DNA of 20,946 nt from the IMG/VR virus record IMGVR_UViG_3300030090_000219, positions 1-20,946 of that record. One strand, given 5' to 3'. A program made the position numbers and the translations under genes. Each line of letters begins with the position of its first letter. Position 1 is the first letter of the stretch. The DNA is from a virus. Positions 5,444 through 20,946 of this stretch are shown here, piece after piece. The notes under the pieces were generated by a model, which worked only from the letters and a program-made list of their open reading frames with translations, was not told the origin of the DNA and did no database searches.

Positions 5444-5471
5444 GTTATACGAAAAAATAACTATTTGTCAA
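5444..5471 (-). promoter_or_regulatory. Sigma70-type promoter for the capsid gene
   Basis: On the minus strand TTGACA (5466-5471) is followed after 16 bp by TATAAC (5444-5449). The -35 box matches consensus 6/6 and the -10 box 5/6. The -35 box overlaps the last codons and stop of the oxygenase gene and the promoter points at the capsid gene 202 nt away. The same TATAAC, in the context GTATAACTnTA, recurs in the promoter at 18989-19018. Confidence 0.7.
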
Positions 5472-6129
5472 CACTTTTTTCTTTCGGCACTTCAAGAAAG
5501 TTCATGTTCATGCTGAAAGACCTACGTTCTCCCTTCGTATAGAATGGATACACGCAGTGAAACAGTTGAGAAGGAAAGACATAAAAGTCTCCAACCTGTG
5601 GTTTTACAACAAAGTTTGTGCAGGTGTAGCCTGAAGCTGTACCACTAGCAAACTGAATATGACCATTAGCAGGATGGTGGTCTTCGTAGTCTTCTTCCCA
5701 TTCCTCTTCAATACCTTCCGGTAGTTTTAAGTAACCTACACACGATAGGCGAGAGCCGGTGTGTATATGAAGAGGATTGTATTCGTTTTCAAACTGGCGT
5801 ACAAACCAGCCTGAAACAATTTGTAGTCCGTAGTTATAGTTGTCAATATCAAGCGACTTTGCACCAAAAGAGTTTCGCAATTCAGTGTACGCTTGATACT
5901 GTCCAACAAACTGCCCTAAACCTTCTTGGGCAATCTTTACTATTTCTTCGTCAAACGCCAACTCTTCAGATACTTTGCCGACAAGGTTATCGGAGTAGTC
6001 TTGAAGTTTGTCAGACATCTTACTGTTTAGTTTGTCCACAAGTTCCTCTGGCATACGGTAGTATCCCATCGTTGGACCAAATGGAGCAAACAATTCCATG
6101 TCTTTTTGGGGCTTGAATATTATACTCAT
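5461..6129 (-). CDS. 2-oxoglutarate/Fe(II)-dependent oxygenase-like protein, 222 aa
   Basis: The 222-residue product carries the pattern of the double-stranded beta-helix 2OG-Fe(II) oxygenases often encoded by marine phages: NPLHIHTGSRLSCVGYLKLP (about residues 118-137) with the metal-binding His pair H121 and H123, later VGDFYVFPSQLFHCVYPF with the distal His at 191, and ERRSFSMNMNF with Arg 202/203 to bind the 2-oxoglutarate carboxylate. The family hydroxylates protein or small-molecule substrates using O2 and 2-oxoglutarate. The ATG overlaps the scaffold stop (ATGA), so it is translationally coupled. Its place between scaffold and capsid genes suggests action on a virion or assembly protein, or simply co-expression; the substrate is unknown. 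The HxH variant instead of HxD is as seen here, and catalytic activity is not proven. Confidence 0.8.
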   Translation of the reverse strand: MSIIFKPQKDMELFAPFGPTMGYYRMPEELVDKLNSKMSDKLQDYSDNLVGKVSEELAFDEEIVKIAQEGLGQFVGQYQAYTELRNSFGAKSLDIDNYNYGLQIVSGWFVRQFENEYNPLHIHTGSRLSCVGYLKLPEGIEEEWEEDYEDHHPANGHIQFASGTASGYTCTNFVVKPQVGDFYVFPSQLFHCVYPFYTKGERRSFSMNMNFLEVPKEKSVDK

Positions 6130-16589: not shown

Positions 16590-16955
16590 CTACTCCTGTT
16601 CAGATACTCTGCTTTCCCAATACTCTTCACCGTAATCGTGAAGTATTTCTTCGCCTTGCTTTATTTCTTTAAGCGCATAAAACTTAACAAAGCGTTCATC
16701 TTCTTCTTCAATGTCCCACTCAGCGTTTGGACTTGCGCTATGATTATAGACCATAGCATGACCCAGTGGGATATAATACTCTTCGGTATCGACATAAGGC
16801 GTGTGAAACATGTAGTCATGGAGGACACACTCATCTCCCACGTCAGTATAATCCGCGACCAGATAAGGACACAACTCAATTGTATCTCCTTGAGCATAGT
16901 CCCTATCTGCGAAAACACCAAGTCCATGTATTTCCGAATTTGCAACATATGGCAT
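16590..16955 (-). CDS. SET-domain protein (putative lysine methyltransferase), 121 aa
   Basis: The whole 121-residue protein is one compact SET domain. Near the start is GLGVFADRDYAQGDTIE (11-27), the first SET motif; the middle has YIPLGHAMVYNHSASPNAEW (61-80) with the NHS-x-x-PN signature that shapes the SAM-binding knot; the end has FYALKEIKQGEEILHDYGEE (92-111), with the catalytic-type Tyr in the DYG. SET proteins transfer methyl groups from S-adenosylmethionine to lysines of proteins. No pre- or post-SET cysteines are present. Its ATG shares one base with the stop of the Lys-rich microprotein gene upstream, and several Lys-rich proteins surround it, so one of these is a natural candidate substrate (inference). 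Host protein modification is the alternative. Confidence 0.85.
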   Translation of the reverse strand: MPYVANSEIHGLGVFADRDYAQGDTIELCPYLVADYTDVGDECVLHDYMFHTPYVDTEEYYIPLGHAMVYNHSASPNAEWDIEEEDERFVKFYALKEIKQGEEILHDYGEEYWESRVSEQE

Positions 16956-17104
16956 TACTTCTTCTTTTTAGCCATACCGCCGCGCATCATCTTTTTCTTC
17001 TTAGCCATTTTAGCCATGCCGCCACCGCGCATCTTTTTCTTCATGCCCATGCCGCCGCCGCGCATCATTTTCTTTTTAGCCATCTTTGCTTTGCCCATTG
17101 CCAT
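16955..17104 (-). CDS. Lys/Met/Gly repeat microprotein, 49 aa
   Basis: A 49-residue frame with an excellent ribosome binding site (AGGAG 8 nt before ATG 17104) encodes only Met, Ala, Gly, Lys and Arg. It is built from degenerate repeats alternating MAKKK-type and MMRGGG/MRGGG-type units: MAKKKMMRGGG, MGMKKKMRGGG, MAKKKKMMRGG, MAKKKK. It overlaps the preceding gene by 29 nt and the SET gene by one base, so it is translated in a coupled series. Similar Met/Lys/Gly runs occur in small marine-phage proteins; the 79-residue neighbour at 17908 has a related MMMGGMANGKKHM segment. It is likely disordered and nucleic-acid or capsid-surface binding. Function unknown; a methylation target of the SET protein is an attractive guess. 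Confidence 0.75.
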   Translation of the reverse strand: MAMGKAKMAKKKMMRGGGMGMKKKMRGGGMAKMAKKKKMMRGGMAKKKK

Positions 17105-17907: not shown

Positions 17908-18147
17908 TTAAACATCAAAGCCCATATTGCGTACAGCAGCTTTGCCCTTTTCCGTTTTAGCAAGTTGCTTCAGACCTTTGTTGGGTAGCTTATCAGTCAC
18001 ATCACCACCAGCAGAATACATATGCTTCTTACCGTTAGCCATGCCACCCATCATCATCTCTGCCTTTTTCATTTTCTTCAGCTTGCTGCGAGGCATCGTG
18101 CCTACACCAATTGACACAACTGTTACGTCATCTTTTTTCTTAGCCAT
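17908..18147 (-). CDS. Small basic Met/Gly/Lys-containing phage protein, 79 aa
   Basis: A 79-residue protein. Its N-terminal half contains KLKKMKKAEMMMGGMANGKK, similar in composition to the nearby 49-residue repeat protein. Its C-terminal half, DKLPNKGLKQLAKTEKGKAA and VRNMGFDV, is a recurrent ending in marine-phage proteins. The ATG overlaps the stop of the gene at 18147 by one base. Function unknown; a virion-associated role is possible. Confidence 0.7.
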   Translation of the reverse strand: MAKKKDDVTVVSIGVGTMPRSKLKKMKKAEMMMGGMANGKKHMYSAGGDVTDKLPNKGLKQLAKTEKGKAAVRNMGFDV

Positions 18148-18449
18148 TAGTATTTTCCCTTACGTGATTTAGGACTAGATTGTTTAGACTTACCTGCCCC
18201 ACCCCATAGAGTACGACATGCCCAGTATCGTGCAGACAGAATGTCCGTAGCTGTGTCACACTTGTGCCTAGCACGAAATGACTTACGGGCTGCAGCACTG
18301 TAATTGTGTCCATAGCCCGTAGCACCAAAATGAATTAGCTTTACCTTGTCACCCTTCTTAGCCAATACCATCTTCTTCTTACCTTCACGGTTAGACTTGA
18401 TGGGCTTATTGTAGCCAGGGAATGTAATGCCACGATATTCGACGCTCAT
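18147..18449 (-). CDS. Conserved-type small basic phage protein, 100 aa
   Basis: A 100-residue protein with the very recurrent phage pattern VEYRGITFPGYNKPIKSNRE near its start, then KGDKVKLIHFGATGYGHNYS, KSFRARHKCDTATDILSARY and WACRTLWGG. Two Cys (69 and 82) lie in the CDTATD and WACRTLW motifs. The family is widespread in marine viruses without known function. ATG 18449 overlaps the preceding stop by 4 nt. Confidence 0.8.
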   Translation of the reverse strand: MSVEYRGITFPGYNKPIKSNREGKKKMVLAKKGDKVKLIHFGATGYGHNYSAAARKSFRARHKCDTATDILSARYWACRTLWGGAGKSKQSSPKSRKGKY

Positions 18450-18655
18450 AGATTGATACCCTTTGCTTCAGCTTCTTTGCACTTATACCGATAAGTGTGT
18501 GGCTGTGGGAATGCCATTTGCATAGTTGTGACCATCTGATGCACACGCATCACACATTCAGCCTCAGTCTTGTACGGACCATACTCATCTTCTGCTTCAA
18601 TGCACATAGTCGGCTGCGACATTAAACATGCCAATACAACTGCTTCAAACATCAT
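18446..18655 (-). CDS. Small exported Cys-containing protein, 69 aa
   Basis: A 69-residue protein with a short hydrophobic N-terminus (MMFEAVVLACLMSQPTMCIE) and four Cys at about 10, 18, 34 and 59, the last three in contexts TMCIEAED, EAECVMRVHQ and YKCKE. Small secreted-type proteins with this pattern (ACLMSQP followed by C, then a C-x6-8-M helix) occur in marine phages. If residues 1-16 are a signal peptide or anchor, the mature part is periplasmic with disulfides. Start and stop overlap neighbours by 11 and 4 nt. Confidence 0.7.
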   Translation of the reverse strand: MMFEAVVLACLMSQPTMCIEAEDEYGPYKTEAECVMRVHQMVTTMQMAFPQPHTYRYKCKEAEAKGINL

Positions 18656-18860
18656 CAGTGTCCTTCCATCCTTCGGCTTTCATTGCAGCCTCAACGTGTT
18701 TCAATGTGAAAGGACGACCATAATGTGCCTCCACAGCTTGCCTTACATAGAACACATCACTGTGGGGTATATGCAAATTATGTAATGTGTTGTTCTTGAT
18801 GGCATCATAGAATGCATCCAACACATTGTCTGTGTATAGTTTTACAGATTTCTTTCCCAT
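18645..18860 (-). CDS. First gene of the leftward operon, small protein, 71 aa
   Basis: The product begins MGKKSVKLYTDNVLDAFYDA and continues with FYVRQAVEAHYGRPFTLKHV followed by EAAMKAEGW. The C-terminal half suggests a winged-helix-like or other small helical DNA-binding fold, but no firm family is recognised. A TTG two codons earlier (18866) is an alternative start; neither has a strong SD. The gene lies about 120 nt downstream of the leftward promoter at 18989-19018, so it is the first product of the late cluster and could be regulatory. Confidence 0.65.
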   Translation of the reverse strand: MGKKSVKLYTDNVLDAFYDAIKNNTLHNLHIPHSDVFYVRQAVEAHYGRPFTLKHVEAAMKAEGWKDTDDV

Positions 18861-18906
18861 TGTCAACTACTTTTTTACAATTGATACAGATTAGTCCAGT
18901 AGGGGG

Positions 18907-18984
18907 TTATTAGATGTAGCATTTAATGTTAGCATATAATGTCTTTAACATCTTTCTAAGGACATTTAATGTTTTATCTAATAA
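18907..18984. repeat. Three near-identical CATTTAATGTT boxes inside a TTATTAGAT / ATCTAATAA inverted repeat
   Basis: TTATTAGAT (18907-18915) and ATCTAATAA (18976-18984) are perfect 9-bp inverted arms 60 bp apart. Between them CATTTAATGTT occurs at 18920-18930 and 18963-18973, with a variant CATATAATGTC at 18933-18943. The right arm covers the predicted start point of the leftward promoter. Binding of a repressor or activator, or an AT-rich iteron role, is inferred. Confidence 0.5.
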
Positions 18985-18988
18985 TAGA

Positions 18989-19018
18989 GTTATACCATAC
19001 TTCACTATCTGCTGTCAA
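18989..19018 (-). promoter_or_regulatory. Sigma70-type promoter of the leftward operon
   Basis: On the minus strand TTGACA (19013-19018) and TATAAC (18989-18994) are separated by 18 bp, matching 6/6 and 5/6. RNA would start near 18982 and run into the first leftward gene at 18860. The -10 context GTATAACTCTA nearly equals GTATAACTATA of the capsid promoter. Confidence 0.7.
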
Positions 19019-19156
19019 GAAGAAAATTATCTTTTGCTGACAAAATATGTGTTGACTTGTCTATGCTTGTACTATCCGTATTTATCATTTGCCCATGTGG
19101 TTAACATTCAATTTTCCCAATCTGTGTATTTATCCATATACGTACGTACCATACGG

Positions 19157-19184
19157 GGGTGTCGGTCCGGCCCTACCGGCATCC
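19157..19184. other. GC-rich hairpin next to a TACGTACGTA palindrome
   Basis: GGGTGTCGGT (19157-19166) pairs with ACCGGCATCC (19175-19184), 10 bp with two G-U type pairs and an 8-nt loop. It stands out in AT-rich surroundings and lies 9 nt after the 10-bp palindrome TACGTACGTA (19139-19148). No U-tract follows on either strand, so a classic terminator is unlikely. Origin, attachment or RNA element are possible. Confidence 0.45.
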
Positions 19185-19245
19185 TGGAACAAAACGTGAA
19201 CGAAACGGCAACATATCGAGAACAATGCTGCGCCAGAAATTAAAA

Positions 19246-19366
19246 GCATCGCCTAAGTCATTGATTTTATTAATGCTGCCAAGTGTTATGCTATCACTTG
19301 ACGCCTATTGAATGCCCAAAGACTGACTGGATTTTAAGATTCGTCGCATTTTGTTAGTGGCGATGC
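19246..19366. repeat. Long-range inverted repeat around GCATCGCC
   Basis: GCATCGCC (19246-19253) recurs inverted as GGCGATGC (19359-19366); including the flanking AT tract, AATTAAAAGCATCGCC and AATTATATGCATCGCC agree at 14 of 16 positions. Inside lies CAAGTG (19280-19285) paired with CACTTG (19295-19300), and just outside CTAACAATGTTAG (19383-19395), a perfect odd palindrome. Confidence 0.4.
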
Positions 19367-19488
19367 ATATAATTAACGACCCCTAACAATGTTAGACACG
19401 ACTAACTTTTTAAGCAAAGCCTGCATGACATAACCAGTACATAGCAGGAACAAAGCTACCGACACCTTATATATATAATAAAAGCTGC

Positions 19489-19525
19489 GTCAATATCTTG
19501 ACACTCACCATGTCAAATCTTTGAC
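19489..19525. promoter_or_regulatory. Two tandem 14-bp palindromic operators, GTCAA-N4-TTGAC
   Basis: GTCAATATCTTGAC (19489-19502) and GTCAAATCTTTGAC (19512-19525) have identical 5-bp arms and 4-bp spacers, with centres 23 bp apart, about two helical turns. This is how paired sites for a dimeric repressor look. A minus-strand TTGACG, N16, TATAAG arrangement (19466-19493) overlaps the first site. The binding protein is not identified in the window. Confidence 0.6.
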
Positions 19526-19681
19526 AAATTTTTTATTGCTTTCTGATTTGCCGCATGCCATTCTCTAACCATCGAAAGCGACGACGCTCTATCAACCGAT
19601 ACGACAAAACGCTAACGATAGGCCAAAAGAAAGCGCATAAGCACTACGGTAACCATGCTAGGCCACAGACTAAATAAATAC

Positions 19682-19710
19682 TTGACTAACTGAATACCGC
19701 GAATTAGAGT
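19682..19710 (+). promoter_or_regulatory. Candidate rightward promoter
   Basis: TTGACT (19682-19687) is followed after exactly 17 bp by TAGAGT (19705-19710), 5/6 and 4/6 matches, with an AT-rich ACTAAATAAATA directly upstream. RNA would start near 19717, giving a leader of about 350 nt through the self-complementary region before the gene at 20067. Confidence 0.5.
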
Positions 19711-19759
19711 AAAGAGACTGAAACGAAACGAGGTACAGAAAAGCAGATATCAAAAGCAG

Positions 19760-20035
19760 TGTTGGTCATCATCACCCACACTATAAAACAGCCCCAACAG
19801 CACCCAAAAGGTGCAGGCACAAAACGATGGCAGGTGGAAACATGAAATCCCTGTGGGTGGTATAGACCATAATGCACTGGAGGTGCGCCTAATTACCTGA
19901 CCTACCCTAACGCCTATGCGCCTAGTTAGCCATACGGTGAGGTCGAAGCGAGAGGGTATCGGGTAGGTCGGAGAGTGCCAGGACGGGGGTGGACTATGCC
20001 GCGCAGCGGGTATGCCACATAGAAAGCCCCCATTC
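19760..20035 (+). ncRNA. Predicted structured non-coding RNA or long structured leader
   Basis: About 275 nt with dense complementary segments and GC above its surroundings. Pairings seen by eye: TGTTGG (19760-19765) with CCAACA (19794-19799); CACCCACA (19773-19780) with TGTGGGTG (19852-19859); GCACC (19800-19804) with GGTGC (19810-19814); GCAC (19874-19877) with GTGC (19883-19886); GACCTACCC (19899-19907) with GGGTAGGTC (19961-19969), or alternatively GACCT with AGGTC (19940-19944); CTAAC with GTTAG inside; and a nested final hairpin (19985-20031). The first two and some others exclude each other, so alternative folds exist. No reading frame, tRNA or known RNA class was recognised. The strand is chosen because of the upstream promoter and downstream gene. 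Confidence 0.55.
19985..20031 (+). terminator. Nested hairpin closing the structured region
   Basis: GGGGG (19985-19989) pairs with CCCCC (20027-20031) and CTATG (19994-19998) with CATAG (20018-20022), with 4-nt internal loops on both sides (TGGA and AAAG); inside, CCGC (19999-20002) pairs with GCGG (20006-20009). It is followed by ATTCTTTAAT, a weak U-tract, so it could be a terminator, attenuator or 3' end of an RNA. The downstream gene begins 36 nt later. Confidence 0.5.
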
Positions 20036-20066
20036 TTTAATCAATAACTAACCAAGGGGTGACGCT

Positions 20067-20771
20067 ATGTCATACAATCTTATTGGGGTTGGCAGTAATG
20101 CCAAGACTGTGAAGGGTGATGGGTCAGAGTACGTAACAGGTATTATGTACCTCAAGCCCTTCAAGACTATTATTGAGGGCAAGACATTCAATGTGTGTGC
20201 ATTGGCTGAGAAAGCACAATGCCACAAAGGCTGTCTTGTATCTGCTGGGCGAGGTAAAATGTCCAGTGTTCAGCGTGGGCGTGAACGCAAAACCGTGTGG
20301 TATCATACTGACCGCATTGGGTTCATGGATGCGCTTATAAACGACATAACTATTTTCAGACGTAGGCAACGCAAGAATGGTGTGCAACCATGTGTGAGGC
20401 TTAACGGTACGTCTGACATATTGTGGGAAAAGGCTGGCATCATGGAGCAGTTTCCTGATGTTCAGTTCTATGACTACACAAAAATTGTGGCTAGGGCTTA
20501 CAAGCCTATGCCTAGCAATTATCATCTGACGCTATCATATAGTGAGGCAGATGCTGACTATGCAGAACAGGTATTGACTGCGGTACGGGATACAGGTATC
20601 AACGCAGCAGTAGTGTTCCGCGACAAGATACCCGCCACGTTCAAAGGGTTGCGGGTTGTGGACGGTGACAAGGATGACCTGCGATTCCTTGACCCGCAAG
20701 GTGTGATTGTCGGGCTGAAGGCAAAGGGTGACGCCAAGCACGATGACACTGGATTTGTAATCGACGCATAA
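20067..20771 (+). CDS. Gp88-type phage protein, 234 aa
   Basis: First rightward gene, ATG 20067 with AAGGGGTGA about 7 nt upstream. The N-terminal half has a Cys group, FNVCALAEKAQCHKGCLVSA, with C44, C52 and C56, then GRGKMSSVQRGRERKTVWYH; the C-terminal half has LTLSYSEADADYAEQVLTAV, a long VVDGDKDDLRFLDPQGVIVG and LKAKGDAKHDDTGFVID. This arrangement matches the 'gene product 88' family named from mycobacteriophages and common in marine phages and plasmids, whose biochemical role is not established to my knowledge. The Cys cluster suggests metal binding. Its place right after the control region suggests early expression. Confidence 0.72.
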   Translation: MSYNLIGVGSNAKTVKGDGSEYVTGIMYLKPFKTIIEGKTFNVCALAEKAQCHKGCLVSAGRGKMSSVQRGRERKTVWYHTDRIGFMDALINDITIFRRRQRKNGVQPCVRLNGTSDILWEKAGIMEQFPDVQFYDYTKIVARAYKPMPSNYHLTLSYSEADADYAEQVLTAVRDTGINAAVVFRDKIPATFKGLRVVDGDKDDLRFLDPQGVIVGLKAKGDAKHDDTGFVIDA

Positions 20772-20783
20772 GGAGATGACGCT

Positions 20784-20946
20784 ATGACTATCACAACACA
20801 TACGCTAAAGTTTGAGAAGCGTGACCATTATGGTGAGATTAGATTTTATCCCATGTGTCCGAAGGCACAGTTTCTGTGTAATCTTTCGGGCAGGAAGACA
20901 TTCCATGTGCAACAGTTGGTTGACATCAAGCGCAATTTGGGATATA
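20784..20946 (+). CDS. Second rightward gene, partial, unknown function
   Basis: ATG 20784 lies 12 nt after the stop of the previous gene, with AAGGAGATGACGCT as leader, nearly the same as the leader of the first gene. The 54 visible residues start MTITTHTLKFEKRDHYGEIR and continue FYPMCPKAQFLCNLSGRKTF; two Cys are present. The frame stays open to the window end. No family recognised. Confidence 0.65.
   Translation, partial: MTITTHTLKFEKRDHYGEIRFYPMCPKAQFLCNLSGRKTFHVQQLVDIKRNLGY

Follow-up and report, generated by a model that had tools for sequence, protein, structure and literature searches.

The DNA analysed here (the window) is an entire virus record of 20,946 bases, in which the structural genes, including those for a terminase, an SU10-type portal and a lysozyme, lie on the minus strand and are separated by approximately 1.2 kb without a convincing gene from an operon on the plus strand. 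This operon, which judging by layout alone is likely to be 'early', starts with a gene of the Gp88 family (PF17338, E 1e-46; 20067..20771, plus strand), for which Puniceispirillum phage HMO-2011 gives the top match among named phages (65% protein identity). A small neighbour gene on the minus strand shares 67% identity with the corresponding genes of HMO-2011 and Roseobacter phage CRP-345 and, on these sequence similarities, the window is an HMO-2011-like marine phage. Phages of the HMO-2011 type are described as a dominant and widely distributed marine viral group (PMC9038755); intergenic regions, promoters and noncoding RNA are not mentioned in the genome paper on these phages. Amid the structural genes of the window there are also minus-strand genes for a 2OG-Fe(II) oxygenase (PF13759, E 3e-18; 5461-6129) and a SET-domain protein (PF00856, E 2e-14; 16590-16955), the latter adjoining a short repetitive reading frame rich in lysine, methionine and glycine (16955-17104, minus strand; MAMGKAKMAKKKMMRGGGMGMKKKMRGGG...).

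Comparative alignments and covariation place a structured RNA at 19717..20040 on the plus strand, its probable start lying about 7 nt past the −10 box of a candidate promoter and its probable end just past a terminal hairpin. This candidate sigma-70-type promoter (TTGACT-17-TAGAGT, 19682..19710, plus strand) has a predicted start at about 19717, where the first-pass annotation, which also mentioned a candidate promoter upstream, had begun its RNA. The promoter agrees with the consensus at nine of 12 positions, a score reached by as many sites in shuffled sequence; its weight therefore rests on conservation: of 26 copies, 24 have a TTGAC(A/T) box no more than 480 nt ahead of the terminal hairpin, usually 237-374 nt from it. 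As had been claimed, the stretch 19717-20035 is devoid of an evident reading frame: the plus strand contains no ORF of at least 40 amino acids and the minus strand only one, of 57 amino acids with a GTG start, and the insertions and deletions found among relatives of the RNA have lengths that are not multiples of three. Farther upstream lies a noncoding block (19063-19162; GTGGTTAACATTCAATTTTCCCAATCTGTGTATTTATCCATATACGTACG) whose conservation extends to distant relatives (L006-L011, HMO-2011 and CRP-345) and which is possibly a replication origin or a regulatory site.

The complementary segment pairs listed in the first-pass annotation are present in the window where it had placed them. The longest, a perfect 9-bp pair with its arms 53 nt apart (GACCTACCC, 19899-19907, with GGGTAGGTC, 19961-19969), is extended by flanking pairs to an 11-bp core helix formed by CUGACCUACCC (19897..19907, plus strand) and GGGUAGGUCGG (19961..19971, plus strand). 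In the covariation analysis of 15 sequences sharing the scaffold of the window, referred to as scaffold A, every cell of this helix is paired (15/15 sequences), and both sides have changed in at least one sequence for six of the 11 pairs, as illustrated by the compensatory version in L127 (CUGCUAUACUG/CAGUAUAGUGG). An alternative partner for the GACCT segment of the helix, which had hinted at a switch, is AGGTC at about 19939. Three relatives (L060, L127 and L128) keep GAGGTC at this place, but their helix arm has CTATA instead of GACCT, which makes the alternative pairing impossible while the 11-bp helix is preserved by compensation. The second partner is thus not conserved, whereas the helix is kept in every sequence, and the reading as a switch is not supported by the sequences compared. 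A riboswitch or attenuator operating through conserved alternative pairing between the body and a terminator or antiterminator likewise finds no support as far as simple helices, as opposed to pseudoknots and tertiary contacts, are concerned: no complement of the 5' arm of the terminal stem recurs across lineages.

The terminal hairpin (19985..20031, plus strand) is terminator-like and consists, in the window, of an outer stem (GGGGGU/GCCCCC), an internal loop (GGA/AAA), a 5-bp stem (CUAUG/CAUAG), an apical hairpin and an 8-nt unpaired bulge, GUAUGCCA (20010..20017, plus strand). Across 19 aligned sequences the 5-bp stem reads CUAUG/CAUAG, GUGUA/UGCAC or CUGUA/UGCAG and the apical hairpin is variable, while the GGA/AAA loop is conserved, with AGA in L130 and L131, and the bulge is invariant (19/19). 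Outside this alignment, the three divergent copies, L115, L202 and L209, have an altered bulge or none. Both sides have changed in 12 of the 17 pairs. The hairpin is paired in 93.5% of cells, against 73.2% in the shuffled control, and its covariation score of 0.597 compares with 0.216 after shuffling and at most 0.135 when the structure is slid along the alignment. A score of 0.573 was obtained from 18 matches to a covariance model of the hairpin (R1) that were located by way of a further neighbour gene and amount to 14 distinct rows; these are only partly new evidence, because most come from contigs already in the 19-sequence alignment, the new ones being L195/L196, L202 and L209, and because their alignment was fitted to the model. 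The complement of the bulge occurs at two sites in the window, one of them the RNA itself, against 0.67 expected, and is not enriched.

The first-pass annotation had suggested weighing the structure by its folding energy against shuffled sequence and by covariation among relatives. The former turned out to be marginal: the minimum free energy of 19717-20035 is -103 kcal/mol (z -1.64, with six of 100 shuffles at least equal), a second set of shuffles gave z -2.1 for the same span and z -1.3 for 19897-20036, and a local scan of folding energy was uninformative, as parts of the downstream coding region score lower than the RNA. These weak scores are what might be adduced for chance pairing in a GC-enriched stretch, an explanation that is refuted by covariation far above the shuffled and slid controls and that is left with virtually no probability. 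Paired positions co-vary in both the 11-bp helix and the terminal hairpin, and it is this covariation, not the folding energy, that is decisive in confirming the original observation of a structured RNA.

The body preceding the terminal hairpin is exchangeable. Identity between the window and L037 amounts to 94.7% over 18068-19735 and to 93.9% over 20010-20946, and the intervening 274 bp (19736..20009, plus strand) display no detectable similarity, the window carrying scaffold A where L037 and L001 carry the unrelated scaffold C. The left edge of the exchange lies about 18 nt past the predicted start and the right edge falls within the terminal hairpin, the stem of which is structurally kept. 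The same A/C difference separates L059 from L065, with flanks 86.9% and 91.6% identical, and an A/B exchange distinguishes L024 from L028, which are 97.6% identical on the 3' side. Three bodies were recognized: A, in the window and most relatives, B (L023, L028, L031 and L209) and C (L037, L059, L138, L146 and L195); that of L202 may be a fourth scaffold. The comparison shows that at least three unrelated scaffolds share one terminal hairpin, with the bodies apparently being replaced as a cassette, and the alignments suggest exchange between lineages. Compensatory changes affect 23 of 92 predicted pairs in scaffold B and 22 of 42 in scaffold C, counts that are supporting only, as they derive from four and five sequences, respectively, with the structures predicted on the same alignments. 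Scaffold B of L023 (3669-4061) contains loops that fit the T-loop pattern (TTCAATG and TTAAA). A tRNA-like nature was considered for this scaffold in view of L023, which combines the 7-base TTCAATG loop, set on a 5-bp stem, with an adjoining closing stem of 7 bp; it was rejected, given that ARAGORN finds no tRNA or tmRNA there and that L209 has no closing stem.

A DNA element, such as a recombination site, a replication origin or a cruciform, would be compatible with the location of the region, which marks the edge of the exchanged DNA and lies within about 1 kb of the conserved noncoding block. However, at two pairs of the hairpin that alternate between U-A and U-G, the U-G wobble is present in 13 and 14 of the 19 sequences, respectively, and would read as A-C, a mismatch, on the opposite strand, which argues for an RNA read from the plus strand. 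The presence of a GCAA tetraloop in L138 and the covariation of the scaffold itself also speak against a DNA element, which is accordingly regarded as very improbable. An integron attC-like hairpin was considered and dropped because wobble pairs favour RNA.

A run of T residues follows the outer stem in L059, L060, L127, L134 and L202, giving the form of an intrinsic terminator (for example CCCTTGTTTTTTAT in L060, CCCTTGTTTTTATC in L059 and CCCCTGTTTTC in L202), while the T-tract is weak in the lineage of the window (ATTCTTTAAT), as is the tail of L115. The first gene begins 35-76 nt past the hairpin in most copies, farther away in L130 and at 35 nt in the lineage of the window, where the gap is too short to accommodate a second promoter and read-through is the probable route to this gene. 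The weak T-tract and the short gap together suggest that in this lineage the RNA is also part of the early mRNA leader. In the window the RNA is indeed located upstream of the Gp88-family gene, which lies outside it, as the first-pass annotation had stated, but this association is incidental: in relatives the same RNA is followed by other first genes, including those of a 199-aa MSVENI protein and an approximately 58-aa MAKNRN protein, showing that it is not linked to Gp88 in particular. In L129, L138, L146, L156, L195 and L202 the RNA is separated from the first gene by a second small hairpin, of the AGGCATAATGGTATGCCT or GGTGCAATAGTGTACC type.

Relatives were gathered through relatives of Gp88, of the minus-strand neighbour gene and of another early protein, as well as through patterns for the terminal hairpin and for scaffold A. 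Model R1 identifies the hairpin in at least 33 viral contigs besides the window, counted by contig name, among them three divergent copies, L115 (E 5.6e-5), L202 (E 8.7e-7) and L209 (E 3.9e-4). The sequence of L115 is very different, yet the hairpin and a similar core helix are kept (CCTATATGATAG-TAACGCC...CTATCATATGG). Chance matches from the first pattern scan (L026 and L038-L043) were discarded on structural grounds. A pattern scan of 84,980 cellular species genomes gave 11 matches, none of them convincing; the best, L178 (E 0.0007), was preselected by pattern, covers only positions 7-54 of the model and is missing the full outer stem. DNA similarity searches with four copies (scaffolds A, B and C and another A) against 50,697 phage records returned nothing credible, the seven Staphylococcus matches to L138 being confined to a 36-nt partial stretch (E 0.04). 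At the sensitivity used, the RNA was found in none of the named phage records, and the regions searched in HMO-2011 and CRP-345 gave no match to model R1.

In HMO-2011, CRP-345 and several relatives, a different conserved noncoding block occupies the place of the RNA (L044:2460-2560 and L045:2510-2600), with the motifs GCGCACnAAnTTCG, GAAACGGCA and GCAGAGGAT; in HMO-2011-like phages a long nested hairpin (CTATCTTCTTACGGTT...AACCTAAAGATAG) comes after this block, directly before an early gene. L047, L051 and L061, the neighbour gene of which is 100% identical, hold apparently protein-coding DNA in place of the RNA region, and therefore the whole locus can be replaced. One contig of 45,238 bases (IMGVR_UViG_2802429358_000003, comprising L195 and L196) has two copies of the RNA, one towards each end, in stretches of 3.6 kb or more that are identical, a duplication that represents either terminal redundancy or an assembly overlap.

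Comparison with Rfam 15 (4227 families, with c4, GOLLD, ROOL and Ocean-V among those considered) yielded no match in the window at the gathering threshold, none in 18900-20100 at E values of up to 5 and none in L023, L024, L028, L031, L037, L044 or L045. ARAGORN detected no tRNA or tmRNA in the window or in the RNA of ten relatives; in L032 it places one tRNA-Trp downstream of the RNA. Strong covariation and the absence of an Rfam match bear out the description of the RNA as an undescribed structured one, and it is taken as a new phage RNA family, since put RNA, c4 and riboswitches each fail at least one of the features tested. Like GOLLD and ROOL, the large ornate RNAs of bacteria and phages (PMC12286853), it is structured and was discovered by comparison; unlike them, it has no Rfam match, is smaller and is defined by a common 3' hairpin on several scaffolds. 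It also resembles the cabRNA of staphylococcal phages (PMC10686824), a structured phage RNA made during infection that a host defence can encounter, but that RNA comes from terminase genes, whereas the present one has its own promoter-proximal locus in marine phages.

Tentatively, and with a probability short of even, the locus is interpreted as producing an approximately 320-nt plus-strand structured RNA in which a 3' hairpin for a shared factor is joined to a swappable specificity body acting in trans. Transcription would start at the sigma-70-type promoter heading the early genes, and the 3' hairpin, through its conserved internal loop and bulge, would dock one shared partner, probably the host RNA polymerase or an RNA-binding protein. 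The hairpin is further proposed to terminate only part of the transcripts, which would yield a free RNA alongside messages that continue into the early genes. The exchangeable body would confer specificity, making the RNA a decoy or regulator in trans against a target of the host or of a rival phage, and this specificity would be the reason why close relatives swap it. This interpretation is supported by covariation in both parts and, from few sequences, in scaffolds B and C, by the plus-strand wobbles, the conserved promoter box, the clear terminator-like ends of some lineages, the cassette exchange, the variety of first genes downstream and the lack of convincing pattern matches in cellular genomes; counting against action in trans, the RNA invariably heads the early operon, a position that is also compatible with a role in cis alone.

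Nearly as likely is such a cis role, in which the RNA would be an early leader controlling the operon, either as an attenuator or as a polymerase-binding antitermination element comparable to the put RNA of phage HK022. The RNA precedes the first early gene by 35-76 nt in most copies, whatever that gene is, and attenuators share its arrangement of a structured body with a terminator-like hairpin behind it. Like put RNA, which works on RNA polymerase without protein factors and the putR element of which lies approximately 270 nt past its start site (PMC9378689), it is located downstream of an early promoter and has paired stems and bulges, the latter functional in put; its terminal hairpin also begins approximately 270 nt past the predicted start. 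On the other hand, identification with put RNA by layout was rejected: put comprises two stem-loops in approximately 70 nt, whereas the present RNA, with about 320 nt, is more than four times longer, and has several helices, several swappable scaffolds and a terminal hairpin that is often terminator-like, polymerase binding being hypothetical here. Moreover, no antiterminator partner for the terminal stem is conserved across lineages, and the full T-run in some lineages suggests release, not read-through.

Phages exchange immunity regions, and the cassette exchange between near-identical phages resembles such events, so a self-standing antisense or immunity-type RNA gene, with the swapped bodies as immunity specificities, was also considered. 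The precedent is c4, the antisense RNA of P1/P7-type phages (RF01695), a structured RNA and known phage regulator (PMC12197685). Here, however, an antisense role is hypothetical, the Rfam search was negative, c4 included, an unsystematic look met no antisense partner, and no temperate sign was seen in a look that did not extend to integrases; this explanation is considered improbable, if less so than a DNA element.

Wholesale replacement of the body beside a constant last hairpin hints at a new type of phage RNA with a part in the control of infection or in an arms race. Returning to the trans-acting RNA with a docking hairpin, the finding may, more speculatively than the mechanism itself, represent a class of phage RNA in which a constant 3' docking hairpin and a swapped body provide RNA-level specificity in an arms race with host defence or competing phages. 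An early RNA that is conserved while its bodies are exchanged would add a new and testable layer to phage control. The covariance model offers a means of detecting the RNA in metatranscriptomes, and near-identical phages whose local differences are almost confined to it are natural experiments.
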